Origin: a virus
Reading direction: 5' to 3' (one strand)
Length of the DNA stretch: 35,845 bases
Virus record (IMG/VR): IMGVR_UViG_3300042731_010956
Location: 1 to 35,845 of that record
In this document: positions 1-35,763 of the stretch, piece after piece
Layout of the letters: each line of letters begins with the position of its first letter
How positions within the stretch are numbered: position 1 is the first letter of the stretch
Translations under genes and position numbers: made by a program
Notes under the pieces: generated by a model
What the model saw: the letters and a program-made list of their open reading frames with translations, nothing else
Databases searched by the model: none
What the model was told of the DNA's origin: nothing

Positions 1-90
1 CTGAGAGAGAGGAAGAAGAAGAGGAGAGAGAGAAAGGACCGTTATGTGGATCCCTTTCGGGTAACCCATCGACATCACAAGGGAAATCAC
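1..90 (+). repeat. GA-rich leader repeat, copy A
   Basis: About 38 nt of almost pure purine run into AAGGACCGTT and then ATGTGGATCCCTTTCGGG, followed by a TAA. Copy B (minus strand, 19338-19421) shares the sequence through to the GGGAAATC at about 90, with two visible substitutions. Copy C (19600-19661) shares only the part up to TTTCGGG. The ATG has a good AAGGA Shine-Dalgarno site and would encode the hexapeptide MWIPFG. Each copy points toward a gene 70-210 bp downstream. It could be a leader peptide, a structured RNA or a purine-tract DNA element; the sequence alone does not decide. Confidence 0.6.
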
Positions 91-11514: not shown

Positions 11515-11554
11515 AGATGTGCATATAACGGGCCAAATCTTGCAAATCACGGGG

Positions 11555-11667
11555 GAAAAAAGTTCGAAGAATGTGTCGTTTTTTGTAGACGGGCGGAGTT
11601 AGCCTTGCTATAAAGAAAATCAAGGGGACGGAAGAAACCCCGCCACACCAAACACCGGACGCCAACA
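11555..11667 (+). promoter_or_regulatory. shared extended promoter/leader, copy 1
   Basis: Aligns with the region upstream of the gene starting at 23877 (minus). Conserved blocks are GAAAAAAG, CGAAGAA, GTGNCG, TTGTNG, GCTATAAA (TATAAA at 11609-11614), AATCAAGGGG and ACCCC. Exactly 37 nt separate CGAAGAA from TATAAA in both copies. GGGG and CCCC could pair in a leader hairpin. The leader is about 50 nt, unlike the leaderless genes around it. Confidence 0.75.
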
Positions 11668-12000
11668 ATGACCACTTTCAAGACCACCACCAGCAAGACC
11701 AACGGCCGCTTCTCCACCCATTGCGCATGGAACCAGGTCGCTTCTAGCTTCCACAACAACTTCAAGCCCGCCTTTCGCAGGACGGTTCGGAACGTCACGC
11801 CCACCGCGCCGGTTCAGATGGCGGTTGATGTCTCCGGCAATTACCCCGGAGTCGTGGGGGACCATGCGGTCATCGTTGCGACTGCAACGTCCACGATCAA
11901 CAACCAGACCGTTCGCATCGGCCTCACGCAAACCAATATGTCTCAGTTCGAAGACCGCGAGTCGGTGGCGACGTGGCTCGTCCTCGCGAATCAGTCCTAG
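11668..12000 (+). CDS. small hypothetical protein with special leader
   Basis: 110 aa, Thr/Asn-rich and probably beta-rich, with no signal peptide or membrane segment (MTTFKTTTSKTNGRF, then HAVIVATATSTINNQTVRIGL). I do not recognise it. There is no clear Shine-Dalgarno sequence (GGACGCCAACAATG). It is inserted between portal and capsid operons on the opposite strand and shares its long promoter/leader with the gene starting at 23877, so the two are likely co-regulated. Its TAG stop and the convergent gene's TAG share the tetranucleotide CTAG. Confidence 0.75.
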   Translation: MTTFKTTTSKTNGRFSTHCAWNQVASSFHNNFKPAFRRTVRNVTPTAPVQMAVDVSGNYPGVVGDHAVIVATATSTINNQTVRIGLTQTNMSQFEDRESVATWLVLANQS

Positions 12001-19599: not shown

Positions 19600-19661
19600 A
19601 AGGAGGAGAAGAAGGGGAGAGAGGAGAGAGAAGAAGGACTGTTATGTGGATCCCTTTCGGG
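19600..19661 (+). repeat. GA-rich leader repeat, copy C
   Basis: Purine tract, GAAGGACTGTT, ATGTGGATCCCTTTCGGG, then diverges. Without the TAA, the mini-ORF continues to MWIPFGMSQQRRGFPGP before a stop. It points to the 19731 gene. Confidence 0.65.
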
Positions 19662-23300: not shown

Positions 23301-23489
23301 TCACTTGCATCGCCACGGAACAGCGTCTGGACATGACACGTCTACCCATGGGACGTTCCCGTCCGACATGCCCGCATCCATCTCAGCCCCGGCATCAACC
23401 ATCCCAGCATCCGGCCCCGGCGACACCTTGCCATCGCACGCACCGAGACCAACAACCATCACAAACAGAGACACGATCATCCAACGCAT
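23301..23489 (-). CDS. small lipoprotein with Asp-Ala-Gly repeats
   Basis: 62 aa: a hydrophobic signal (MRWMIVSLFVMVVGLGAC) with lipobox GLGAC, then a repeat-like linker with PDAGMVDAG and MDAGMSDG, and a C-terminal cysteine pair (SCPDAVPWRC). Asp-Ala-Gly linkers after the lipid-anchored cysteine are common in myxobacterial lipoproteins, a hint about host type. TACGAT lies 6 nt before ATG 23489. It follows the other lipoprotein's promoter in tandem orientation but has its own -10 box. Confidence 0.75.
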   Translation of the reverse strand: MRWMIVSLFVMVVGLGACDGKVSPGPDAGMVDAGAEMDAGMSDGNVPWVDVSCPDAVPWRCK

Positions 23490-23515: not shown

Positions 23516-23626
23516 CTAGAACGGGATCTCGTCGGAGTCGTCAACCGGGGCCATTGGGGTGCTGGGGATGGCCTGGAGCGGGGATTCTGAAAGCTCGCCG
23601 GGGAGGTCGGTGTGTTCTTTGTTCAT
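23516..23626 (-). CDS. 36-aa peptide ending in an SSB-like acidic tip
   Basis: Begins MNKEHTDLPGELSE, has a Pro/Ser/Ala spacer and ends PVDDSDEIPF. The last nine residues match the C-terminal tip of bacterial single-stranded DNA-binding protein (acidic run followed by I-P-F), which recruits ExoI, RecO, RecQ, PriA and other partners, but no OB-fold precedes it. The ATG lies 2 nt after the stop of the upstream gene, with GAGGGA about 8 nt before it. A free tip could occupy SSB-partner pockets; alternatively it is a relic of a phage SSB gene. The tip is seen, the role is inferred. Confidence 0.6.
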   Translation of the reverse strand: MNKEHTDLPGELSESPLQAIPSTPMAPVDDSDEIPF

Positions 23627-23628
23627 GA

Positions 23629-23877
23629 TTACATTCCCTCTACGAGATCGAACATTTTGTTCAGGTTGGTGACGACGTCGTTGACGTCGGTGTAGGTTTT
23701 GTTGAACATCCACCCCCGGGTGGTTACCAGCACGTCTGCAACGTAGCTGTTGTGAACCGGCCACCCGGCTCGACGAACCGACACCTTGACATCCGACGTT
23801 CCAGTCCAATCAACGGCAAACGTGAACTTCGTGGGGGAAAGGTTGCTGAGAAGCGTAACGAGATTTGTGTGGGTCAT
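23629..23877 (-). CDS. small hypothetical protein with special leader
   Basis: 82 aa from ATG 23877 (MTHTNLVTLLSNL), with AGGA 8 nt upstream. Not recognised; it reads as a small alpha/beta protein (FTFAVDWTGTSDVKVSVRR, then VVTNLNKMFDLVEGM). It heads an operon with the SSB-tip peptide. Its ~110-bp upstream region matches that of the 11668 gene, although the proteins themselves show no clear similarity. Confidence 0.75.
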   Translation of the reverse strand: MTHTNLVTLLSNLSPTKFTFAVDWTGTSDVKVSVRRAGWPVHNSYVADVLVTTRGWMFNKTYTDVNDVVTNLNKMFDLVEGM

Positions 23878-23992
23878 TGTCTTGTCCTGTGTGTTCGTGT
23901 TGCTGGGGTCTCTGTCGTCCCCCTTGATTCTGTTTATAGCGAATCCATGACCTGGGATCAACAACTTTCGTCACTTTCTTCGGTCTTTTTTC
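23878..23992 (-). promoter_or_regulatory. shared extended promoter/leader, copy 2
   Basis: Minus strand: CGAAGAA, GTGACG, TTGTTG, then TATAAA (23938-23933), AATCAAGGGGG and GACCCC, in the same order and with the same 37-nt CGAAGAA-TATAAA spacing as 11555-11667. TTGATC 17 bp before TATAAA could also act as a -35 in this copy. Confidence 0.75.
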
Positions 23993-24048
23993 TAAGTGAC
24001 CGGAACCATTCGGGATTTTCTTATGGAAAACAGTCGAGTCCCACGTCT

Positions 24049-24992: not shown

Positions 24993-27086
24993 TTACGCCC
25001 CCTTCTCGACGCGCAGCTCACCGTCGCCGCCGACCTCGTAGGACCCGTTGTTGAGTAGGACCTCGACCATGCCGGCGTGCTCCGCGGCGTAGGTTTCGAT
25101 CAGGCCCTTGGCGCGCGTGAGCTGCGCCTTGAGGATACCTTCGATCTCGGCGTGGCGGGCTTCACTGACACTCGCCGGGACGTTGGTGTCGCCAGTCATT
25201 GCGAGGCTTGCACCCATCCCCAGTTGAGTGACCATGGCGGTGGCCAGTCGCGTGGCGCGGGCGATGTCGTCGCTGGCACCGGCGCACACCACCTTGAGTA
25301 CAACCTCCTCAGCGGCCCGGCCACCGAGCATGGTGCATATCCGGTCGAGTAGTGCGGGCTTGGTCTGGACATACTTGTCCTTGGGGTCATCGAACGCCAC
25401 GTAGCCCAGAGCGCCGGAGACATCCCCCTCGATCGTCACACGGCTGATCGGCGGCGCGTGCTCCAGGTGCAGTGCGACGACGGCATGACCGGCTTCGTGG
25501 ACGGCGACGGTACGACGCTCCCCCTCGTTGAGATCCGGGCGATCGACCATCGAATCGAAGAGGGCGTCGATGTGTTCCTTCGTGGTCACCCCTTTGACGC
25601 GCTCGCGGATGCGGTAGCGAGCCAGGGCGCTACACAGGCCGGCGAGTGCAGCCCCGGTGTATCGGGTGCCGGTGTTGGGAGTTGGACCTGCGGTGCGCCG
25701 GACAAGAGTCGTCATGGCGTCGTCATCGATCTCCAGCTCTTGCTTGTCGTTGTACAGATTCAGGATCGCGCGGCGGGCGTCGTCATCGGGGTACCCGACA
25801 TAGATCTGATGTCCGAGCCGTCCGTCCCGAAGCAGGGCGGGGTCCAGGGATGACGGGAAGTTTGTGGTGCCGATGACGAACACCAGTTCATCCTTGCGGA
25901 ACCCGTCGAGTTCGGTGAGTAGCTGATTGACCATGGCGTGGGTGACCCCGTTGCCGCCGGAGTACATGTCCCGAGCCGGGGCGAGGCTATCGATCTCGTC
26001 GAACACGATCACTGCGGGTGCATTGCGGCGGGCTCGACGGAAAACCCGTCGGATGTTTTCTTCCGACTCGCCAACGAACTTGGACTTCAGCTCCGGGCCG
26101 TTGACGACGATGCAGACGCCATTGATGGCCGTGGCGAGCGCTTTGGCGAACAGCGTCTTGCCGGTGCCCGGGGGGCCATGTAGGAGGATGCCGCGGGGGA
26201 TCATCGATTCGGTCTTTTTGTACTCCACGGGGTCATCGATTTCGTCGAGCCGCTCCAGGAACGAGATGATCTCGTCGTTGAGCTTGTCCTTGACGTCTTG
26301 GTATCCGCCGATGTCGTCGTCGAGACCGATGTCGGGGCGCTCGACATCGGCGTCGGTGGCCGCTTCCGCGAGCTGGTCGTACGCCCCATCGGGATCGATG
26401 TACGGCGCCACGTTGACGGCGTCGAGGGCCTTGATCAGAGAAAACGGGTTGAGGCCCGACACGAGCTGGTGAAGGCCGAATGGGTCGAACCGATTCGGTG
26501 CCGCCGAGAACTTGCGGGCGTGCTCGCGGGTCACCAGTTGCGGCAACCGCTCACGGGCGATACCCTCGCAACGCTCATGGAGGCCAAAGATCTTCGACAA
26601 CGAATCCGGGATGACGATGTTCCGGTCCATGCACGCGAACCAGATCGCTTCCTCGGGGTTCTCGCCCACGAGCTGCGCGAACTGCCGAGCTTCCATGGTG
26701 AGGCTGCCGGAGCCGGACACCAACACACCGAGGAACGGGATCATGATGATCGGTGGCGAATCGTCCGCGGGCGGGTTGTTGATGGCCATTCGAATCTTTG
26801 CCATCATGACCTGAGACGGTGCGGCACCTTCCATCTCTGGTAGGGGTGCCGAGTCGATGTAGCGGATGCGGTCCGCGAGACTCTGGTCTTGATTCTTGAG
26901 ACGGTCCGAGATGATCTGTGATACGAACGTCGAGACCATCAAGTCCGTTGAGATCAAGACGTGCTGGCCGCGGACCAACGCATCCGCGGCGCGCGTCAGT
27001 TGGGGACCATAGCCGATCGTGACGGCGTCGATGGGTTCGAGTTCTGCCGGAAGGTCCCGCTCTTTGATGTAGCGTTTGTTACTCAT
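24993..27086 (-). CDS. FtsH-like AAA+ zinc protease without transmembrane segments
   Basis: 697 aa. AAA module at about 290-500: Walker A GPPGTGKT (~303), Walker B VIVFDEID (~360), sensor-1 VIGTTN and RDGRLGHQIYVGYPD. Peptidase M41 module from ~515: zinc site HEAGH (~529-533), then MLGGRAAEEVVLK and SDDIARATRLATAMVTQLGMG. FtsH normally has two N-terminal membrane helices and a periplasmic domain; here the first ~250 residues lack them and instead resemble a worn AAA domain (VLISTDLMVSTF where a P-loop would be, then IIMIPFLGVLV and RNIVIPDSLSKIFG). It is thus probably cytosolic. Leaderless, with the dispersed palindrome in its promoter spacer. Confidence 0.88.
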   Translation of the reverse strand: MSNKRYIKERDLPAELEPIDAVTIGYGPQLTRAADALVRGQHVLISTDLMVSTFVSQIISDRLKNQDQSLADRIRYIDSAPLPEMEGAAPSQVMMAKIRMAINNPPADDSPPIIMIPFLGVLVSGSGSLTMEARQFAQLVGENPEEAIWFACMDRNIVIPDSLSKIFGLHERCEGIARERLPQLVTREHARKFSAAPNRFDPFGLHQLVSGLNPFSLIKALDAVNVAPYIDPDGAYDQLAEAATDADVERPDIGLDDDIGGYQDVKDKLNDEIISFLERLDEIDDPVEYKKTESMIPRGILLHGPPGTGKTLFAKALATAINGVCIVVNGPELKSKFVGESEENIRRVFRRARRNAPAVIVFDEIDSLAPARDMYSGGNGVTHAMVNQLLTELDGFRKDELVFVIGTTNFPSSLDPALLRDGRLGHQIYVGYPDDDARRAILNLYNDKQELEIDDDAMTTLVRRTAGPTPNTGTRYTGAALAGLCSALARYRIRERVKGVTTKEHIDALFDSMVDRPDLNEGERRTVAVHEAGHAVVALHLEHAPPISRVTIEGDVSGALGYVAFDDPKDKYVQTKPALLDRICTMLGGRAAEEVVLKVVCAGASDDIARATRLATAMVTQLGMGASLAMTGDTNVPASVSEARHAEIEGILKAQLTRAKGLIETYAAEHAGMVEVLLNNGSYEVGGDGELRVEKGA

Positions 27087-27125: not shown

Positions 27126-27710
27126 TCAAAGCACGCGGAATCGTCGGACGGCGTCGCGCCGCCATTGCCCCGCCCACATCGAGACATCCTTGGTCGAGAT
27201 CACGCCGACCTCTAGGTTGCGGGTCAAACTGGTCTGCGCCAGGTTCGCGGAACCGACGACCGCGACGAGACCATCGGCGACGATGAACTTGGCATGCAAG
27301 TTGGTTCCCGGCTTCGGTAACCATACGCGGGCGCCGAGATCACTGAGCCGTTGACCTTGTTTCCGGGCGACACCGCCGGCCCATACTTCGACATCAACGC
27401 CGCGGTCAATGGCATCGTTCACCAATGCATCAACCATGCCATCATCGCCGATTGAAAATGTCACGATCACGAGACGAGACTCCGCGGCGCGCAAAATCTT
27501 GCACACCGTGTAGCCGTAGTCCAGGCCGGCGACGACACGACCGTTGGCAAGCCGTGGCGCCCGCTTCGCGTAGACTGAGATTGCGCGATCCCATGGGGTG
27601 CCGCGAGCCGTGTCCTTGCACTCCGGGTACCTCGAACATCCTCGGAACGGCCGCCCCCTGAAGTCAAGCAAAATTCGGTCGGCACCGCACCCACATACCC
27701 AATCCGACAT
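27126..27710 (-). CDS. PLD-family nuclease with N-terminal zinc ribbon
   Basis: 194 aa. A topoisomerase-type zinc ribbon comes first (VCGCGADRIL, then FRGCSRYPECKDT, four cysteines). Then a single phospholipase-D fold: LHAKFIVAD, the HxKx4D motif with His at about 139, followed by VVGSANLAQTS and NLEVGV. Single-HKD proteins such as Nuc and BfiI act as dimers on phosphodiesters, so nonspecific or guided DNA cleavage is expected; the ribbon would bind the DNA. ATG 27710 has TACATT 7 nt upstream. It lies just after the FtsH-like gene's promoter region on the same strand. Confidence 0.85.
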   Translation of the reverse strand: MSDWVCGCGADRILLDFRGRPFRGCSRYPECKDTARGTPWDRAISVYAKRAPRLANGRVVAGLDYGYTVCKILRAAESRLVIVTFSIGDDGMVDALVNDAIDRGVDVEVWAGGVARKQGQRLSDLGARVWLPKPGTNLHAKFIVADGLVAVVGSANLAQTSLTRNLEVGVISTKDVSMWAGQWRRDAVRRFRVL

Positions 27711-27717
27711 ATCAATG

Positions 27718-27723
27718 AATGTA
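27718..27723 (-). promoter_or_regulatory. leaderless -10 box for the PLD nuclease
   Basis: TACATT, 7 nt before ATG 27710, within the gap shared with the divergent 27732 promoter; no clear -35. Confidence 0.6.
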
Positions 27724-27731
27724 GCTCAGGG

Positions 27732-27760
27732 TTGCCCTTTACGATGGATTCGTATAGGCT
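27732..27760 (+). promoter_or_regulatory. leaderless sigma70-like promoter
   Basis: TTGCCC (27732-27737), 17-bp spacer, TAGGCT (27755-27760), 6 nt to ATG 27767. Confidence 0.75.
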
Positions 27761-27766
27761 TACGGG

Positions 27767-28315
27767 ATGCATGTGTACAAGTACAAGCCCGGTGATAGGT
27801 TCAAGACTTCGCGAGGCCGGCTGTTCACAACCGAAACTCTCGTCGGTGGGCGAATCGTGTTGCGGATGTCCGTGGCTGGAACCATGATGGTCGCCGCGAC
27901 GTTCAATGGCGTCAGTGAGCTTGAGCGAGCCGTAGCCGGCGCCCGTGTTGTCCCGCACCCAGAGAGGGTCGGTACATGGAGGCGACCGTCAACGGCATCT
28001 GAGCGGCACCCATGGATGTTCCGTGAGTTCGTCGCCGCGGTGATGCATTCGGTGAGGGATGAGCCGGACCCCGAGGTTATCGAATTGGATGATACCGACG
28101 TGGTTCTTGATGGGGGAGGACGATTCAGTGATTCCCGCCGGCGGGAAATCGTGGATGCCGCCATCGCCGGGAAGGCAAAGTACGGCTCCGTCGCGCATTG
28201 GTACGACGTCCGAGGCAAACACCTCGGGGCCAGCAAGTCAACGATCTACCGGTGGCTCCGGGAACGAAAAGCGCGACCCCGACTACGAGTACTCGACGGA
28301 GGACTCAGTGGATGA
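27767..28315 (+). CDS. HTH-containing protein
   Basis: 182 aa. The C-terminal ~50 residues form a likely helix-turn-helix: REIVDAAIAGKAKYGSV, then AHWYDVRGKHLGASKSTIYRWLRER, where GASKSTIYRWLR is the recognition-helix pattern of resolvase- or transposase-like HTHs. The N-terminal part is beta-rich (KYKPGDRFKTSRGRL). DSRRRE just before the HTH is encoded by a dispersed palindrome. A DNA-binding role is likely, target unknown. It is a candidate, on the HTH alone, for a regulator acting on this element. Its end overlaps the convergent 28305 gene by 11 bp. Confidence 0.7.
   Translation: MHVYKYKPGDRFKTSRGRLFTTETLVGGRIVLRMSVAGTMMVAATFNGVSELERAVAGARVVPHPERVGTWRRPSTASERHPWMFREFVAAVMHSVRDEPDPEVIELDDTDVVLDGGGRFSDSRRREIVDAAIAGKAKYGSVAHWYDVRGKHLGASKSTIYRWLRERKARPRLRVLDGGLSG
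28132..28147. repeat. dispersed palindrome
   Basis: Perfect TTCCCGCCGGCGGGAA inside the HTH-protein gene (read as DSRRRE). Confidence 0.85.
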
Positions 28316-28952
28316 TGTCAATCCAAGAGCAGTTGTAAACCGGACTATGTGCCGTTTTAACAAGTATCTGTTTGACCGTGTCGATACTATAGACGGAGTA
28401 GTCGGCATCAGTGTCTCGATGTGTGACGACGATGGTCCTATAAATAGAATCGTCATCGATGATTTGAGACCGTGTTCCCGAAGGGACCGACGCGTCCCTT
28501 ACATATCCATACGAGAACATGGTGGATGATTGCGATACTTTGTATCGCCCCAGAAGGTCATCGCCGGCATACAACCCAACTGCCCATTGCGTCTCACCCC
28601 AGAGCATGGCGTCTTGTACGAGGTCATCCCGCCCGTTATCGATGAGCCAGTCGAATGTGGTGACCAACGTGTCCGGTGTGTTCCATCTCGACGATCCCGG
28701 GACATACGTGCCCCATCCGGTGGGTCTAACGTATATCGGAGAATGCGTGACAAGGTACCGAATGACTATGTGCAGAGGCCAATCCGTAGCCGACTCCAGG
28801 ACCGCCTTGGCACGCTTCTCCGGCCGTATGAGGGCAAGGGCTAGGGCGTCCGTCAGCGCCTTGGGTGACTTCGGGTCAAAGGGGTCCGTTGAGAGTCCCA
28901 GGAGATCAACCATGCTCTCGTAGATGCCGGCCATCAATGCGTCATCATTCAT
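28305..28952 (-). CDS. hypothetical protein
   Basis: 215 aa, not recognised, cytosolic-looking. A helical first half (LTDALALALIRPEKRAKAVL) is followed by an aromatic region (SPIYVRPTGWGTYV). ATG 28952 has TAGGTT 7 nt upstream and TTGATC 18 bp earlier. Base composition in the second half is lower in GC than its neighbours. Confidence 0.75.
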   Translation of the reverse strand: MNDDALMAGIYESMVDLLGLSTDPFDPKSPKALTDALALALIRPEKRAKAVLESATDWPLHIVIRYLVTHSPIYVRPTGWGTYVPGSSRWNTPDTLVTTFDWLIDNGRDDLVQDAMLWGETQWAVGLYAGDDLLGRYKVSQSSTMFSYGYVRDASVPSGTRSQIIDDDSIYRTIVVTHRDTDADYSVYSIDTVKQILVKTAHSPVYNCSWIDIIH

Positions 28953-28959
28953 GGGGGCG

Positions 28960-28989
28960 AACCTACCACAACGGGCGCGGTGAGATCAA
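28960..28989 (-). promoter_or_regulatory. leaderless sigma70-like promoter
   Basis: Minus strand: TTGATC (28989-28984), 18-bp spacer, TAGGTT (28965-28960), 7 nt to ATG 28952. Confidence 0.75.
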
Positions 28990-29023
28990 CTCAGACGATG
29001 TTCGATTTTTGTGTTCGACGGGC

Positions 29024-29052
29024 TTGACATGGCCAAGTGGCTCATGTAGAGT
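29024..29052 (+). promoter_or_regulatory. sigma70-like promoter
   Basis: TTGACA (29024-29029), 17-bp spacer, TAGAGT (29047-29052), 9 nt to ATG 29062; the closest match to a consensus pair in the window. Confidence 0.8.
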
Positions 29053-29061
29053 GGCTACACC

Positions 29062-29439
29062 ATGAACAAAAAATACCTCTACACGATCATCTCTACCCGC
29101 ATCGCGGAAGCGGGTATCACTTCCGTCATCTCACCGACCGATTCGTTGGGCTGCGGCTCACCGACCGGAATGATCGTCGAGTTCGAAAACGGGATGCACT
29201 TGTCGATCCAGTATCACTGGGGTAGCTACAGTAGTGTCGGTCGAAACACTGGCGGTGATGTGACCGTGGAAACTGCGGTAACACTACCCGGTGGCAAGTT
29301 CTGGGATCCGGCGACCAAGGCGCCGTGGGTTTCGTATCAAGGACACTTCGACCAAGTTCAAGGATGGCAGACCATCGATGACGTCGTGGCCCTCGCGCGG
29401 CTTGTCGCGCAGCAGCCCGCCGCTACTGAACCGGAATGA
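29062..29439 (+). CDS. small hypothetical protein
   Basis: 125 aa, not recognised. The N-terminus MNKKYLYTIISTRI is followed by a beta-rich Gly/Ser region (MIVEFENGMHLSIQYHWGS) and a helical C-terminus (IDDVVALARLVAQQ). Its last 17 bp overlap the end of the convergent tail tube gene. Confidence 0.75.
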   Translation: MNKKYLYTIISTRIAEAGITSVISPTDSLGCGSPTGMIVEFENGMHLSIQYHWGSYSSVGRNTGGDVTVETAVTLPGGKFWDPATKAPWVSYQGHFDQVQGWQTIDDVVALARLVAQQPAATEPE

Positions 29440-29929
29440 CGCGGGGGTAGTCGTAGCGCAGGACGACCGACTCGATGGTCTTGGCGTCCTCTTCGTTGTT
29501 CATCGACCCCAGAGTCACCGTTTTGGGATAGGCGTTGACCAAACGAATCCGCTTCCGCGGCGTGCCGTCCCGCTTGAGCTGCACGATATCGACGTCCCGC
29601 TTGTAGGCTTCGTCATCGAGACCAAGACCGGTACCGATGCCAGCACCGAGCGGGGAATCGACGTTGACATCGGTCGTGGTGATGAACCAGAAGTAGAGGT
29701 CGTCGTCGTTGTCGATGACCCCCCGCTCCAAGGTAACGTCGTCAACGGTCACGCGGCCCGGGGACTTGTACGCGATGGCGCGCCCGCCCTCCCAGTGATC
29801 GATGTCCTCGTGGGTCATTGTGATTTCCGACACGCTACGGAATTTCGCACGCGTCACGCCTTCGATCTGCACGATGAATCGGAAAGAATCGTGGAAGGTC
29901 GTCGCGGCTCCAGGTGAAGTGATGGGCAT
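29423..29929 (-). CDS. tail tube protein (T4 gp19-like)
   Basis: 168 aa, normal for contractile-tail tube subunits, which stack as hexamers inside the sheath. Family features: an opening DSFRFIVQIEGVTRAKFRSVS, here DSFRFIVQIEG then AKFRSVSEI, followed by WEGGRAIAYKSPG, VTLERGVIDNDDDLYFW, and late RIRLVNAYPKTVTLG with LRYDYP. Strong GAGGAG 6 nt before ATG 29929. It lies directly downstream of the sheath gene, the standard order. Confidence 0.9.
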   Translation of the reverse strand: MPITSPGAATTFHDSFRFIVQIEGVTRAKFRSVSEITMTHEDIDHWEGGRAIAYKSPGRVTVDDVTLERGVIDNDDDLYFWFITTTDVNVDSPLGAGIGTGLGLDDEAYKRDVDIVQLKRDGTPRKRIRLVNAYPKTVTLGSMNNEEDAKTIESVVLRYDYPRVIPVQ

Positions 29930-29951
29930 GTTGTCTCCTCTCCCCGTGGCG

Positions 29952-29969
29952 TTTCCCGCCGGCGGGAAA
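29952..29969. repeat. dispersed palindrome between sheath and tube
   Basis: TTTCCCGCCGGCGGGAAA, perfect to 20 bp with its flanking G and C, in the 48-bp gap between sheath stop and tube start; on RNA it would form a stable hairpin. Confidence 0.9.
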
Positions 29970-29977
29970 CCGTGGGG

Positions 29978-32182
29978 TTAGATCGTGGAGTCCGCCGACA
30001 AGCGTGAGAACTCGATGATGATGAAGTCCGCGGGTGTGGCGAACGCGAGGCCAATCTTGCCGTTCAACTCGCCGGCCTCGATCTTGTCCGGGGGGTTGAG
30101 TGCCTCCCCGAAGTTGACGATGTACGCGGTGGATGGATCCTTGCTCCGGAAGGCATCGATCTTGAGCTGCGAAAGCAAGAACTGTTCCACGACCCGCGTG
30201 ACCTCGATACGGAGGCTTTGGTCATTGGGGAAGTGCAAGAACGGGGTCAAGCCCTTGATGATGGTTTGCTCGATGAAAATCGCCCCGCGACGCTGAGCCA
30301 CCCGCGGGAAATTGCTATCGGCGCGCAAGGTCTTCGTCCCATTGATGTACACGACGCCGTCGTCGTTGATCGTGATGGGGTTGATCAGCTCGGGGTAGAC
30401 CTTGTCTTGAACCGCCCGCTCGCGGACCCGCGGTTCCTCGACGCCGACGACGCCCCGGAGTTGCCCGCGCTCGTTGTCACCCGCCGGGGACTGGTAGATG
30501 CCACCGGGAAACAGGTTGTCCGTGGCGGCATAGCGCCCGGCAACAGCACCACTCACCGGGATCGCGATGTTGGCGGCATTCCCAAACACCACCTCATCGG
30601 GATTGATGATGAGCGGGCGCGGCCAGTAGGTGATCACGAATTCGCTGAGCCCGGTGAGGGCGTTGGTCGCCTTGAAGTGAGTGACGACCTCATCCTCATT
30701 GAGACCCGCCGGCGGATCCAAGATCCCGAAGATGGCGCCGCCTCGAATCACCTCGCAGTATTCGACGATCCCATTCTGGAGTACCGCCGACGTCTGGCCA
30801 GGGACACACAAGATGGACGTCACAGTCTGGTCAAGTACCCGGAGACCGGTAGCACCATTGGCGCTGCGACCACCGAGAAAGTCGGTATCGGCAAGACCCA
30901 CGAGACCATCATCACCGCCGGTGAGTGGTCCCAGCAACCCGTTGGCGGGGCGGGTGTCCGCCGCTGCCAGTTCGAGGTCAGTCGCCGAGATGTAGTCGCT
31001 CGCGGTAAGCGCCGCCTCAACGAACCCGCTATTCAGGGGGTCCATGGTGAGATTGGCGAACCGTTCGAGAACGAGCCCGTTGTCTTCCACCGAGAGGTTG
31101 AAGAACTCGGCGTCCCCGTTGGTGGCATCTTCGATGCGCACCTGCAAGGTGTTGGCATACTCACCGTCGGTCTTGCCGTCAATCTGTACCGTTGGCGCCG
31201 CAGCACCGGACGTCCCGCTTACCGTAGCGGTGGTCCAACCCAAGGCGATCTGGATCGCGGAGCTGGCGACCTGAAGCGTGGACGCCGGGCCCGTGGTGTT
31301 GCTCTCCAGCCGCACCGCCCCGGAACCAAGGACCGTCACAGTGGTACCAGGAACATCGGCTTCGACGACCGTCTTGACCTCAGCGCCCGTCACGGCATCG
31401 ATATCCGCGACGTCACCGGTACCAACAGCAGCACCCGCCGGGAATGCGAACGCCGCCGCCGCGGTACCACCGGTAATCTCGACGCTTGACGCCGTGCCCC
31501 GAGTATCCGACGTGATGGTCACGACGCCACCGGCACCGCTGGCGAACGCCCCCGAGATCTTGGCATTGATGACCGCCGCGACCTCGGCCGATTTCGCGAG
31601 CGCGATGTTGGCGAACTCCGCGGTGAGGAACGTGATGGTCTGCGCCAGACCGCCGTCAACGCTTACGTCAAGGGTCTGAAGATCGGCGAGGACGTAGTCC
31701 TCGGAGTTGACCGACGTCTGGGCACCGGGCGCGGCATCGAACGTTGCGAGAACGGCACCGCCACCATCGACATCAATCGCAACCTGATCACCGGGTTCAA
31801 AGTCGAATGGTCCGGGATTGGTTCCGTCAATCACGGCGGCCGTGGGAGCACCGCTTGCCGTGAGCAGATTCAAGGTAGCGGCTGCGGACGTCTTGGTCGC
31901 CGGGTCAAGAACATCGGTGTAGTGAACCACCCGAGTGATGATGGCGCGTTGTCCGCCCCCGAGGAAGAACGCCAGGACCGATTGTGGGAGTTCGCTGTCG
32001 GTGATGAACCCACCGAAGATGCGCTCGAACTCATCGAAACCGACGACCTCGGTGGGCGTGAAAGGCCCGCGCTCCGTGACACCGACGAATCCGGCCACCG
32101 AAGTCTGGACGGGATCGAATGCTCGCCGTGTCGGCTGAGCTTCCCTGGCGTAGACACCAGGCGAAAGATATTGGTTCGACAT
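29978..32182 (-). CDS. tail sheath protein
   Basis: 734 aa, larger than the ~390-660 aa common in the family because of a Thr/Ala/Val-rich middle insertion (about residues 110-350) that would decorate the tail surface. The N-terminus is diagnostic: YLSPGVYAREA, VAGFVGVTERGPFTPTEV, then FERIFGGF and SVLAFFLGGGQRAIITRV. The C-terminal core has LRADSNFPRVAQRRGAIF, here in part, then FLLSQLKIDAFRSKDP and ADFIIIEFSRL. The ATG shares one base with the preceding stop (TGATG), with a GGGGGG ribosome binding site. It drives contraction around the tube encoded next. Confidence 0.93.
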   Translation of the reverse strand: MSNQYLSPGVYAREAQPTRRAFDPVQTSVAGFVGVTERGPFTPTEVVGFDEFERIFGGFITDSELPQSVLAFFLGGGQRAIITRVVHYTDVLDPATKTSAAATLNLLTASGAPTAAVIDGTNPGPFDFEPGDQVAIDVDGGGAVLATFDAAPGAQTSVNSEDYVLADLQTLDVSVDGGLAQTITFLTAEFANIALAKSAEVAAVINAKISGAFASGAGGVVTITSDTRGTASSVEITGGTAAAAFAFPAGAAVGTGDVADIDAVTGAEVKTVVEADVPGTTVTVLGSGAVRLESNTTGPASTLQVASSAIQIALGWTTATVSGTSGAAAPTVQIDGKTDGEYANTLQVRIEDATNGDAEFFNLSVEDNGLVLERFANLTMDPLNSGFVEAALTASDYISATDLELAAADTRPANGLLGPLTGGDDGLVGLADTDFLGGRSANGATGLRVLDQTVTSILCVPGQTSAVLQNGIVEYCEVIRGGAIFGILDPPAGLNEDEVVTHFKATNALTGLSEFVITYWPRPLIINPDEVVFGNAANIAIPVSGAVAGRYAATDNLFPGGIYQSPAGDNERGQLRGVVGVEEPRVRERAVQDKVYPELINPITINDDGVVYINGTKTLRADSNFPRVAQRRGAIFIEQTIIKGLTPFLHFPNDQSLRIEVTRVVEQFLLSQLKIDAFRSKDPSTAYIVNFGEALNPPDKIEAGELNGKIGLAFATPADFIIIEFSRLSADSTI

Positions 32183-32544
32183 CAGTTGCCCCCCTTATTC
32201 CGCTTCCGAGACTTCTTCACCGGGGATGCCTTTGGAGCCGAATCATCCGCGTCTGGGATGAACTCTGCGCGCACCCAACGGAGGCGAACCACGAGCCGCT
32301 TGAAGTCCGCGGTGTGCTGCCATTCGTCGGGTACCTCGACCGGCACGCCGGGATTCAGTCGGATCCCCACCGGGACGTGGACTTGCTCTCGACGGACACC
32401 CCGCTTTGCGGAACGGCCAGAGAGTGCCCTCTGTCGGGACTGTGTTTTGGTAGCCTGCGACCTGAGACGCTTTACGACGGTGGTCGCCGGCCCCGCCATT
32501 TCGATCGGTGCCGGAGGGCGCCGTACATTCGTCAGTCGGATCAT
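32182..32544 (-). CDS. basic hypothetical protein leading the sheath operon
   Basis: 120 aa, highly basic at both ends (VVKRLRSQATKTQSRQR and PVKKSRKRNKGGN) with a folded-looking middle (DFKRLVVRLRWVRAEF). Not recognised. It is the first gene of the sheath-tube operon and is translationally coupled to the sheath. ATG 32544 has TAAACT 7 nt upstream, with the same TAAACTCG as the tail protein I promoter. Possible roles are a tail chaperone or minor structural protein; nothing in the sequence settles it. Confidence 0.75.
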   Translation of the reverse strand: MIRLTNVRRPPAPIEMAGPATTVVKRLRSQATKTQSRQRALSGRSAKRGVRREQVHVPVGIRLNPGVPVEVPDEWQHTADFKRLVVRLRWVRAEFIPDADDSAPKASPVKKSRKRNKGGN

Positions 32545-32551
32545 GATGACG

Positions 32552-32557
32552 AGTTTA
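32552..32557 (-). promoter_or_regulatory. leaderless -10 box of the sheath operon
   Basis: TAAACT (within TAAACTCG), 7 nt before ATG 32544; no TTG-type -35. Confidence 0.6.
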
Positions 32558-32572
32558 CGGCACGGTATTTGC

Positions 32573-32578
32573 TATCAT
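32573..32578 (+). promoter_or_regulatory. leaderless -10 box for the spike gene
   Basis: TATCAT, 7 nt before ATG 32586; weak or absent -35; divergent from the sheath promoter. Confidence 0.65.
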
Positions 32579-32585
32579 CTCATGT

Positions 32586-33143
32586 ATGGAACCAACATTC
32601 GATGACCAAGGCGACCGCCTCGATCTGAACGGTGACTACGCCGCCGTCGTGTTCGACAATGAAGATCCCCGCGGCCTTGGTCGTATCCGTGCCACGATTG
32701 ATGGCATCGTCGATCAGCCGGCGACAGGATGGCTGTACCCAGCGGCGATGGGTGCCGGGCCAGGTATCGGAGCTTGGATGGTCCCCGAAAAGGGATCCGA
32801 TGTCGTAGTGAGATTCTTCCTCGGGAATCCCGATGAGGGTTACTACTACGGCGGTTCGTGGCCGACGACATCGGTACCTGCAGAAACCGAAGGCGGGTCA
32901 CCCCGGATCTGGGTGATTGCCAGGAAGCGATACGCCATCATACTTGATGACAAAAACGAGACCGCCGCATTGATCGATCGTGAAACCGGTGGCGGCTTCC
33001 GTCTCACACGCGACGGGTTGAAGGTGGACATCGGCGCCACCGCAGACCTATCGATCACCGCGGGTGGCAGCATCACCATCGACGCCCCCGTGGTGACGAT
33101 CAATGGGCGCGACGTGTTGACGTCAATCCTCCCGATCAGCTGA
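32586..33143 (+). CDS. baseplate spike protein, gp5/gpV-like
   Basis: 185 aa. The N-terminal ~90 residues match the OB-fold of central-spike and VgrG proteins: YAAVVFDNEDPRGLGRIR, GWLYPAAMGAG, then GAWMVPEKGSDVVVRFFLGNPDEG and YYYGGSW. The C-terminal part (DLSITAGGSITIDAPVVTIN) is a short beta-helix stem, as in gpV. It forms the membrane-piercing tip under the tail tube. No lysozyme domain is fused. Leaderless start at 32586; its end overlaps the convergent 33123 gene by 21 bp. Confidence 0.85.
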   Translation: MEPTFDDQGDRLDLNGDYAAVVFDNEDPRGLGRIRATIDGIVDQPATGWLYPAAMGAGPGIGAWMVPEKGSDVVVRFFLGNPDEGYYYGGSWPTTSVPAETEGGSPRIWVIARKRYAIILDDKNETAALIDRETGGGFRLTRDGLKVDIGATADLSITAGGSITIDAPVVTINGRDVLTSILPIS

Positions 33144-33467
33144 TTCGTCGAGGTCGTTCGGAATCCCGTCGCTTGCGTACCGGCGCAGATGATCGACGAA
33201 TTCCTCTGGCTTCAAGTTCAGCTGCAAGACGTTCCGAATAACGTACTCCACGGCATCGACGAACGTCTCGCGCAGTCCTTCTTCGATGATGGTGTCCGCC
33301 GTCACCGTACATTCCTCCTCGGTGGCGCCGAGCAGCTCATAAATATACTTCACCGCGATTCGGTCATGAGGGGCTTCAAGGGTGGGGGAAGCACGATCGC
33401 GGAAGATTTGCTGGACCCACAGTCCGGTCGGGGTGCTTGGCATTGGAAATGGCGTTGTGTCACTCAT
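33123..33467 (-). CDS. hypothetical protein, paralogue of the 33945 product
   Basis: 114 aa, helical. Shares with the 33945-34265 product the order NPFP/TPFP-like start, WVQQI or CVEQI, PHDRIAVKYIYELLG or PHGRIAALFIRAILG, and GLRETFVDAVEYVIRN or GLFETFRRNLRAILT. Not recognised beyond that. AAAGGA 6 nt before ATG 33467 gives a Shine-Dalgarno start. The promoter is unclear; TATAAC at 33509-33504 and an inverted repeat at 33534 lie upstream. Confidence 0.75.
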   Translation of the reverse strand: MSDTTPFPMPSTPTGLWVQQIFRDRASPTLEAPHDRIAVKYIYELLGATEEECTVTADTIIEEGLRETFVDAVEYVIRNVLQLNLKPEEFVDHLRRYASDGIPNDLDESADRED

Positions 33468-33531
33468 TGTCGTTCCTTTGATTTGGGCGCATCACTGCGC
33501 CGGGTTATATGGATCGTGTCACACGCGGGCA

Positions 33532-33948
33532 TCATTTGTCAAGTGACAAATCATCGATGTGCCAAAACTCGTCAATGATGGCCGAAATTGGGTGCCCGGT
33601 CTCGGCGTATCTGTCTACCAGTGCGACAACACATTCGCTGTGGTCTTGGTTCTGGCCAAGCGAGTCCGCTAGTGTCGCGAGGCGCAAGTATTCCGTGATG
33701 GACTCAATGACGTAGCTTCGGTGCGGCGCCAATGCGCGGATCCACCTGTAGACAGCGGCATCGGATGAATCCCCCATAAGCGCCATCATTAACATGGTCA
33801 TGAGACTCTGCTTCGGAACCTCGTGTGACGGCTTAGTCGATATCGTCTTCTTGACAGACAGACCCGTGGTGTCGATGTCGATGTCGATGGGAAGCTCGAA
33901 TTGAACCAGAGCTAGATTTTTGACTGCATAGAGATGCATATTACTCAT
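33532..33948 (-). CDS. hypothetical protein
   Basis: 138 aa, not recognised. N-terminal beta-like half (MHLYAVKNLALVQFELPID), C-terminal helical half (AVYRWIRALAPHRSYVIESI). Its ATG overlaps the end of the 33945 gene, so the two are coupled. The final codons lie in the inverted repeat at 33534-33551. Confidence 0.75.
   Translation of the reverse strand: MSNMHLYAVKNLALVQFELPIDIDIDTTGLSVKKTISTKPSHEVPKQSLMTMLMMALMGDSSDAAVYRWIRALAPHRSYVIESITEYLRLATLADSLGQNQDHSECVVALVDRYAETGHPISAIIDEFWHIDDLSLDK
33534..33551. promoter_or_regulatory. inverted repeat, operator candidate
   Basis: ATTTGTCA-AG-TGACAAAT, perfect 8-bp arms with a 2-bp centre, at the 3' end of the 33532 gene and about 70 bp before ATG 33467. 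It differs from the GC-rich dispersed palindrome. Confidence 0.55.
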
Positions 33949-34265
33949 AGCGAGTCGGCGTCTTCCTGATCCTGGAGGTACTCGATCAGATCTTCCGAAT
34001 CGTCAAGAACCGTTGGATTAGTCAGAATGGCACGAAGATTGCGTCGGAACGTCTCGAAAAGGCCACCAGCTGTGATTGCGTTGATTGTGCGCGCGCGGGC
34101 ATCATCGGTTTCCCCAAGGATAGCGCGGATGAATAAGGCAGCTATCCGTCCATGAGGGAGGTTCATAGCATCGGGGTCTGCGTGTTGAATCTGTTCGACA
34201 CACCATCCCACGATGGGATCAGACATGTCGATTGGGAATGGACTGTTCTCGGTTTCGTGGCTCAT
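33945..34265 (-). CDS. hypothetical protein, paralogue of the 33123 product
   Basis: 106 aa from ATG 34265 (MSHETENSPFPID), similar along its length to the 33123 product, with the acid-rich tail LIEYLQDQEDADSL replacing HLRRYASDG. Start supported by CAACGT 7 nt upstream and TTGACA 17 bp earlier. First gene of a probable three-gene unit with 33532 and possibly 33123. Confidence 0.75.
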   Translation of the reverse strand: MSHETENSPFPIDMSDPIVGWCVEQIQHADPDAMNLPHGRIAALFIRAILGETDDARARTINAITAGGLFETFRRNLRAILTNPTVLDDSEDLIEYLQDQEDADSL

Positions 34266-34272
34266 GCTCACA

Positions 34273-34301
34273 ACGTTGACACACGCCGCCCCGGATGTCA
34301 A
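34273..34301 (-). promoter_or_regulatory. leaderless promoter with weak -10
   Basis: Minus strand: TTGACA (34301-34296), 17-bp spacer, CAACGT (34278-34273), 7 nt to ATG 34265. Confidence 0.55.
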
Positions 34302-34335
34302 CGCTTGGGCCATACATTTTTGCGCGCGTCACCCG

Positions 34336-34365
34336 TTGACGAGTCCGCGAAAATCGTGCTACACA
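34336..34365 (+). promoter_or_regulatory. leaderless sigma70-like promoter
   Basis: TTGACG (34336-34341), 18-bp spacer, TACACA (34360-34365), 6 nt to ATG 34372. Confidence 0.7.
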
Positions 34366-34371
34366 GCTGCT

Positions 34372-35763
34372 ATGGGTACTTTCAACAAATATGACTGTCT
34401 CTTTGGGGCGATCCGCCCCGGGGACGACTCTGTCTGTATCATCCTTCGACCAATTACCATGGATGACCGGGTGCATCCTCTGGGTTCCGTCAAGATCTCT
34501 CCTGGCGACATGTTGCCATCGGGTGAATGGACTAGCGCAGTCCCCTACCGCGCCGTGGTTCCATGCTTTGGTAGGAACGGCTGCAACGGCATGGAAGAAT
34601 TCCACGAAGCCGGCGCCGCGTTGGTATACGCCAAAAAATTGGGCCTCAGTGGTGTCGCATCGCTTGTGAAGGTCGCTAGCAACGGCTTGGGTGATTACCC
34701 CGATTATCTACTTTCCGACGCCATGCGCAGCATCATGACCCCACCATGGGAGGCGCGGGCATCGACACTCGACCGGCTCCCAGACCTGGGGTTTGTTTCC
34801 GCTGGCCAATATCTCGGGAAACCGGTATGGCAACACCCATCATCGAAAGACCTTCGCATCATCGCCTACACCGGCAGTGACGAAGATCCCGGAATCGACA
34901 GATTCTTCTCAGAGTGGTTCACCCGTGATGCCACCCCAGATGCGGGGGCCATACTTGTCTTGAGACAAAGTGGTGATGGGTATGAAGTACACACACACAT
35001 CCGGGTCGCAAACTTCGGCCGACGGTGGAAAGACCTCACCGGATTCTATCTCGGTTTTCCAGAAGACCAACAGTTCGCGCTCGGTGTCTTGGCCCGCCTG
35101 AGTGCCACGTGGGTGCGTCGGGACACCTGGGATCTCCTATCGTCCCCCGACTTCCCCCGCACTTTCCGTACCAACGAACACGCCCGGCTTGATCGCATCG
35201 CCGAGCGTGTTGTCGCCCCGCCCTGCGACGTGAATGACTGGGAGCACGCCAAGTGGGTCAAGAACATCGGGGCATGGCCCCAACTGTTGGAGCATCTCCA
35301 TTTGGATCACTACATGGTTCAAGAAACATTCATCAATGATCCTGCCCCACTACAGGACCCACAGGTACGGGATGACCTCGCGCAGCTGTACACGTTCGAA
35401 GCTACGATGACCTATTCTCTGAGCCGTGCCCTACTCCCCGGCACCCATGCGTCGAGAGATTCGGATGGGCTCGATGCGGAATACGTTGCCGCCGAACACA
35501 TCTACCGTACCAGTGTGGAACGGTTGTACGCACTCAATTCCCGCTGGCAGGAATGGTCACCCAACATCGAGACAGAACCCGGGGAACAGGCCAGAGTTCG
35601 GCTCACACTGCCAAAGGTGTTTGGATACCCCGGCGGCCTCGTGGTCGAATGGGCTCAGTGCAACGACGATCCGATGATCATTCCGCCCGCGTTCATCAAT
35701 GGAATTGACGCGACAGCCGGAGACGTCATCGTGTGGGATGGCGTCCGGTTCAAGCCGGCGTGA
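34372..35763 (+). CDS. large hypothetical protein
   Basis: 463 aa from ATG 34372 (MGTFNKYDCLFGAI); the longer open frame upstream is rejected because TACACA lies 6 nt before this ATG. Not recognised. It has a central alpha/beta region (AGAILVLRQSGDGYEVHTHI) and a helical C-terminal half (LEHLHLDHYMVQETFI, then TYSLSRALLPG). No signal, membrane segment or nucleotide-binding motif is visible. A near-copy of the dispersed palindrome lies at 35538. Confidence 0.75.
   Translation: MGTFNKYDCLFGAIRPGDDSVCIILRPITMDDRVHPLGSVKISPGDMLPSGEWTSAVPYRAVVPCFGRNGCNGMEEFHEAGAALVYAKKLGLSGVASLVKVASNGLGDYPDYLLSDAMRSIMTPPWEARASTLDRLPDLGFVSAGQYLGKPVWQHPSSKDLRIIAYTGSDEDPGIDRFFSEWFTRDATPDAGAILVLRQSGDGYEVHTHIRVANFGRRWKDLTGFYLGFPEDQQFALGVLARLSATWVRRDTWDLLSSPDFPRTFRTNEHARLDRIAERVVAPPCDVNDWEHAKWVKNIGAWPQLLEHLHLDHYMVQETFINDPAPLQDPQVRDDLAQLYTFEATMTYSLSRALLPGTHASRDSDGLDAEYVAAEHIYRTSVERLYALNSRWQEWSPNIETEPGEQARVRLTLPKVFGYPGGLVVEWAQCNDDPMIIPPAFINGIDATAGDVIVWDGVRFKPA
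35538..35553. repeat. dispersed palindrome, degenerate copy
   Basis: TTCCCGCTGGCAGGAA; its reverse complement differs from the CA-centre form at one base. Confidence 0.4.

Follow-up and report, generated by a model that had tools for sequence, protein, structure and literature searches.

Bacterial SSB proteins end in a short acidic C-terminal tip (SSB-Ct; ...DDDIPF in E. coli, ...DDDLPF in B. subtilis), and the contacts made by this tip link replication, restart, recombination and nuclease enzymes to ssDNA. The pockets of SSB partners recognise the carboxylate and the side chain of the terminal Phe together with Asp residues, and loss of this Phe from SSB is lethal in E. coli (PMC3594151). 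The tip also binds when separated from the rest of SSB. By ITC, E. coli SSB peptides of 15, 31 and 65 residues (P15, P31 and P65) bind RecO, PriA, chi and PriC; the acidic tip alone accounts for the binding, the linker and the DNA-binding domain contributing nothing. K for the E. coli tip is ~1.2e7 per M with RecO, against ~3e5 per M with PriA and with chi (PMC7145534). Small molecules blocking SSB/partner contacts, one of which mimics the Pro-Phe end, inhibit bacterial growth (PMC3594151).

SSB-like tips are also shared by phage RecT/annealases, primases, helicases, gp2.5- and gp32-like proteins, DUF669 and DUF3127 proteins. All of these carriers differ from the peptide described here in that their tip extends from a protein with a folded DNA-metabolism domain. 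No description of a phage-encoded free SSB tip was found in the open-access literature.

A 36-residue phage peptide ending in an SSB-type tip

The window, that is, the whole 35,845-nucleotide stretch analysed, is identical over all of its bases (1-35845) to bases 90863-55019 of IMGVR_UViG_3300037127_000056 (G001; 116,337 bp). It is therefore a fragment of that phage and not an independent isolate. G001 carries terminase, sigma-factor, ribonucleotide-reductase, thymidine-kinase and helicase genes; no tRNA genes were found. The features of the peptide in the window are:

23516-23626, minus strand: peptide ORF MNKEHTDLPGELSESPLQAIPSTPMAPVDDSDEIPF, 36 aa, pI ~4.05, charge ~-7
23519-23542, minus strand: SSB C-terminal tip DDSDEIPF, abutting the TAG stop

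The earlier note had described a 36-residue peptide that ends DDSDEIPF and has no DNA-binding domain. The ORF, its coordinates and its tip are all exact in the sequence, and the peptide has no Pfam match. At the extreme C-terminus of MNKEHTDLPGELSESPLQAIPSTPMAPVDDSDEIPF, acidic residues are followed by a hydrophobic residue, Pro and Phe with a free alpha-carboxylate, so that the conserved acidic SSB-type tip with its (I/L)PF ending is present, and no OB-fold ssDNA-binding domain was found by Pfam. Because this defining fold was tested for and is absent, the peptide, judged from its sequence, does not belong to the SSB family (PF00436 / phrog_44), though it would be SSB-Ct-like in its working.

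The likeness to the bacterial SSB-Ct includes the acidic run, the Ile-Pro-Phe end, the free carboxylate, a probably flexible, proline-containing linker before the tip and the same expected partner pocket. In contrast to bacterial SSB, the peptide has no OB-fold, ssDNA binding or tetramer, and the tip is encoded separately, as an independent gene. Closer in kind are the synthetic P15, P31 and P65 peptides (PMC7145534) and the MPTA-type inhibitors (PMC3594151), which are likewise free ligands without a DNA-binding domain and compete with SSB for its partners, P31 being the nearest in size (~31-36 residues). Those ligands are man-made; the phage peptide differs from them in its leader and would be produced in vivo. 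The predicted novelty is the use of a known short motif as a stand-alone phage gene.

AlphaFold gave the peptide no secondary structure at a pLDDT of 69 (a single-sequence model, which is weak evidence), and this acidic peptide is probably disordered. No similar chain was found in the PDB, tblastn against 50,697 phages returned no homologue, and a nucleotide search of the region in phages gave no match. No divergent homologue was found, the sole relative found being the identical G001. Likewise, searches for relatives via the neighbouring 82-aa gene, an FtsH-like protein and a 734-aa sheath-like protein returned G001 alone, identical to the window.

The transcription unit and its coding potential

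The peptide ORF lies within a predicted unit of small genes, whose features, together with further copies of its promoter-plus-leader element, are:

23874-24009, minus strand: promoter-plus-leader element, ~135 nt, common to three small-gene units
23961-23956 and 23938-23933, minus strand: sigma70-like TTGATC and TATAAA separated by a 17-nt spacer, then leader AGAATCAAGGGGGACGA
23629-23877, minus strand: 82-aa first cistron, MTHTNLVTLL...DLVEGM, an orphan
23636-23640, minus strand: Shine-Dalgarno-like GAGGG, 9 nt 5' of the peptide ATG, within the 3' end of the 82-aa gene
23301-23489, minus strand: small lipoprotein-like ORF, 62 aa, 3' of the peptide, codon use not phage-like
11546-11671, plus strand: element copy 2 (G001 79318-79193), 5' of a 110-aa ORF at 11668-12000
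G001 107384-107247, minus strand: element copy 3, 5' of a 68-aa orphan

The "special promoter" from which the peptide had been said to be co-transcribed is real as a predicted element, since the ~135-nt promoter-leader occurs three times in the phage and recurs before two other small genes. The two other copies are 78% and 71% identical to it (blastn), each 5' of a small gene, and the conserved blocks comprise GAAAAAAG..CGAAGAA, TTGATC-17-TATAAA and the leader AGAATCAAGGGGGACGA. The 110-aa and 68-aa orphans downstream of these copies are probably co-regulated and perhaps early. A second repeat, AGAAGGACTGTTATGTGGATCCCTTTCGGG, is distinct from the promoter-leader element; it occurs at window positions 20-61 and 19620-19661, near the starts of several genes, and in G001 also near g58, g59, g81, g82, g121 and g122. 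In addition, a palindrome, TTCCCGCCGGCGGGAA, is present in ~10 copies with small variations across the window, some of them within genes (4811, 7868, 12394, 14560, 18949, 20364, 24167, 27103, 28132 and 29953), and could serve as a binding site for a regulator of the phage or for a packaging/replication protein.

Co-transcription of the peptide with the 82-aa gene is probable, as only 2 nt separate the 82-aa gene stop from the peptide ATG, and no terminator-like site lies between them on the minus strand. Translational coupling of the peptide to the 82-aa gene is likely, its GAGGG lying within the end of that gene, and the 62-aa lipoprotein-like ORF probably follows on the same transcript. The 82-aa protein itself has no Pfam or PHROG match, and its AlphaFold model (mean pLDDT 47) is too poor for a fold assignment.

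An ORF of only 36 codons that is also an orphan might have arisen by chance, or be hardly used, and have a coincidental tip, especially as a six-frame reading of a 116-kb phage yields many ORFs. The peptide shows phage-like codon use (+0.21 per codon). Its coding score falls in the top 2.5% of 37-codon windows in non-coding frames, and among real coding windows it ranks at the 72nd percentile; put the other way, 2.5% of the non-coding-frame windows score equally well. Just 5' of the ATG, the same frame scores as clearly non-coding (-0.22 per codon); this switch at the ATG supports a start at 23626. The Shine-Dalgarno site, the abutting start and the conserved promoter likewise speak against an accidental ORF. 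As for the tip, the 116-kb contig has 1916 ORFs of 20 aa or more, of which a single one, the peptide, terminates in [DE][DE][ILVM]PF*, and this pentapeptide pattern occurs nowhere else in the contig's called genes. Even this loose pattern ended none of 146,098 ORFs in simulated sequence (60 third-order Markov simulations), and the expectation from amino-acid composition is ~7e-6 per gene. A tip by chance is unlikely. The peptide ORF looks like a real gene, and we consider a coincidental or barely used ORF quite improbable.

Alternatively, -1 frameshifting during translation of the 82-aa gene could yield a longer product with the tip at its C terminus: the -1 frame of that gene has no stop for 61 codons, and the peptide frame is open back to a TTG at 23809. 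Such openness is, however, met by chance in 68 of 425 comparable windows (16%) in other genes, the extension is strongly non-coding in its codon use, and no canonical slippery heptamer is present. We therefore reject the frameshift fusion, to which we give hardly any weight.

SSB genes and tips in this phage and in other viruses

A separate phage SSB with the same tip, for which the earlier note had suggested looking, was not found across the 116-kb contig. Searches with PF00436 and phrog_44, which detected their positive controls, gave no match in any frame at E<=10, not even an OB-fold remnant, and no ORF of the contig resembled any of 105 tip-bearing viral proteins. The absence of both the SSB family and any likeness to tip-bearing proteins leaves nothing to suggest that an SSB was split or has decayed. 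This bears on the idea that the peptide is the surviving tail of an SSB gene that the phage once had, to which the identity of its tip with that of SSB would lend itself; such a tail must also have acquired its own start codon and Shine-Dalgarno site and come to lie in an operon. We reject a split SSB and an SSB remnant on these grounds, the latter being very unlikely. Searches of the contig for DNA polymerases of families A, B and C likewise gave no match. G001 is possibly incomplete, so that these absences hold for the contig and perhaps not for the whole phage.

The lack of a detectable SSB or known DNA polymerase family in the contig means that host enzymes may be needed, and the 82-aa gene and the peptide lie 2 nt apart under one predicted promoter. 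On these points one could propose that the N-terminal 28 residues of the peptide bind the 82-aa or another phage protein, so that the tip brings host enzymes to phage DNA and the pair acts as a two-gene substitute for an SSB with its tip. However, the 82-aa protein belongs to no recognisable DNA-binding family, its model being too poor to judge, and the peptide bears no sign of a second binding motif. We regard this recruiting role, the chief rival of the decoy reading given below, as unlikely.

The phage bears most of an FtsH-MoxR-vWA "ternary" conflict system, the usual carriers of which are multicellular bacteria (PMC7159879); no statement that phages carry this system was found in the literature. 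Its components are:

24993-27086 (window), minus strand: FtsH-like AAA+M41 protein
27678-35458 (G001), minus strand: fvmX5, fvmX6, fvmX7, ivWA, MoxR ATPase and a radical-SAM protein

Ternary systems come with small C-terminal peptides, including acidic and FtsH-associated types, and peptide-processing partners have been described for them (PMC7159879). As an FtsH-like gene of this type lies 1.4 kb upstream and the contig also encodes ternary-system domains together with a radical-SAM protein, the peptide could be a precursor or signal peptide of the phage's own system. Against this, the remaining ternary genes are ~30 kb distant, no separate (zincin-like) processing metallopeptidase was found beside the peptide among the genes scanned, and such a role needs no exact SSB tip; it seems to us highly improbable. 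The lipoprotein style and the FtsH-ternary system together give a hint, by inference only, that the host is a multicellular bacterium such as a myxobacterium. Elsewhere in the window, a PLD-family nuclease-like protein (27126-27710, minus strand) begins with a zinc-ribbon-like segment similar to the one in topoisomerase I.

We also surveyed tips in other viruses. A broad scan of 2.9 million viral contigs looked for a ribosome site and an ATG 60-90 nt before a [DE][DE][DE][ILVM]PF end, and 88 distinct tip-bearing ORFs were tested among the matches listed. Among these, SSB was the commonest family (at least 12 by Pfam, more by PHROG), other carriers being annealases, primases, helicases, and gp2.5- and gp32-like proteins. 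Viral tips thus appear, among the matches listed, to sit mostly on SSBs and other DNA-metabolism proteins, and this distribution indicates that the motif is meaningful. The exact octapeptide DDSDEIPF had six matches in 84,980 genomes, three of them SSBs and one resembling DUF3127 proteins. A 330-aa Paracoccus protein (L135 5867-6859, minus strand), which has no Pfam match, ends exactly in DDSDEIPF and may be another non-SSB user of the tip.

Free-standing tips appear to be rare among viral contigs. D[DE]xD[DE]IPF behind a GAGG site matched nine contigs, with a free peptide in this phage alone and the other matches being tails of larger proteins, while a sister scan of 63 places gave no free tip. 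In two broader scans, 9 of 120 closed ORFs had at most 45 codons, and six of these nine were one and the same conserved 29-aa peptide. These four later scans list all of their matches, but free tips are under-counted by the approach, because all of the tip scans demand a particular ribosome-site motif. The 29-aa peptide, M(Y/V)PDMFLLSACLVTSLGLVCIYFEDDLPF, is present in at least eight viral contigs:

L043 7068-7157, minus strand: 29-aa peptide
L056 5834-5923, minus strand: 29-aa peptide
L077, L185, L187, L189, L193, L195: 29-aa peptide

Like the peptide of this phage, it is a stand-alone micro-protein with an SSB-like tip, but it is hydrophobic, probably membrane-spanning, ends in EDDLPF and is unrelated in sequence. 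Its substitutions are mostly synonymous (five, against one non-synonymous), for which reason it looks like a genuine second, unrelated kind of stand-alone tip. A further free-tip candidate of 23 aa, MRKEPKLYAGLPTLPINEDDIPF, was seen in L013 and had no phage match by DNA.

A putative decoy for the partners of SSB

We propose that the peptide is a phage-encoded, free-standing SSB-Ct ligand acting as a competitive decoy for the tip pocket of host enzymes, a reading to which we assign a probability of roughly 0.6. Without DNA binding, the peptide can only compete, which makes a decoy the simplest reading, and the putative titration of ExoI, RecO, PriA and similar proteins, suggested in the earlier note, is well grounded in published biochemistry, isolated SSB tips binding partners in ITC experiments (PMC7145534) and small molecules blocking SSB/partner contacts (PMC3594151). 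With its perfect tip, the peptide would essentially be a natural P31.

In the proposed mechanism, the sigma70-like promoter would drive the unit, probably early, and the peptide would be made through translational coupling to the 82-aa gene. The Ile-Pro-Phe-COOH end and the acidic residues of the unstructured peptide would then enter the SSB-tip pocket of host partners, candidates being RecO, PriA, Pol III chi, ExoI, RecQ and similar proteins. An enzyme whose pocket is filled by the decoy would not be brought to SSB-coated DNA and would thus be drawn away from the host's DNA-bound SSB. On E. coli affinities, RecO (Kd ~80 nM) would be saturated first, followed by PriA and chi (~3-4 uM). RecO-dependent gap repair would be hit first; the first expected effect is a loss of RecFOR-type gap repair and recombination, and restart (PriA) and chi contacts would be affected later. 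Free tips are weak on most partners, so the decoy would need high expression, and a disordered 36-mer may be short-lived, which speaks against the decoy reading. The scarcity of the exact octapeptide as an SSB ending, three cases in 84,980 genomes, also counts against it.

A counter-defence role for the peptide is also conceivable, because some defence systems sense phage SSB, AbpAB being given as an example in PMC10732053. More tentatively, and less likely than not in our view, phages may encode dedicated micro-proteins consisting of a free SSB tip, of which there would be at least two independent forms, soluble and disordered here and membrane-anchored in another phage group, as decoys that disconnect host repair, restart or defence enzymes from SSB during infection.

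If the decoy reading is true, a peptide competing for SSB contacts would be a compact tool for phage takeover, a probe for which SSB contacts matter in infection, and a natural counterpart to the antibacterial leads directed at SSB interactions. It would then be worthwhile to search for short C-terminal motifs encoded as micro-genes on their own, a class of gene that annotation pipelines tend to pass over.
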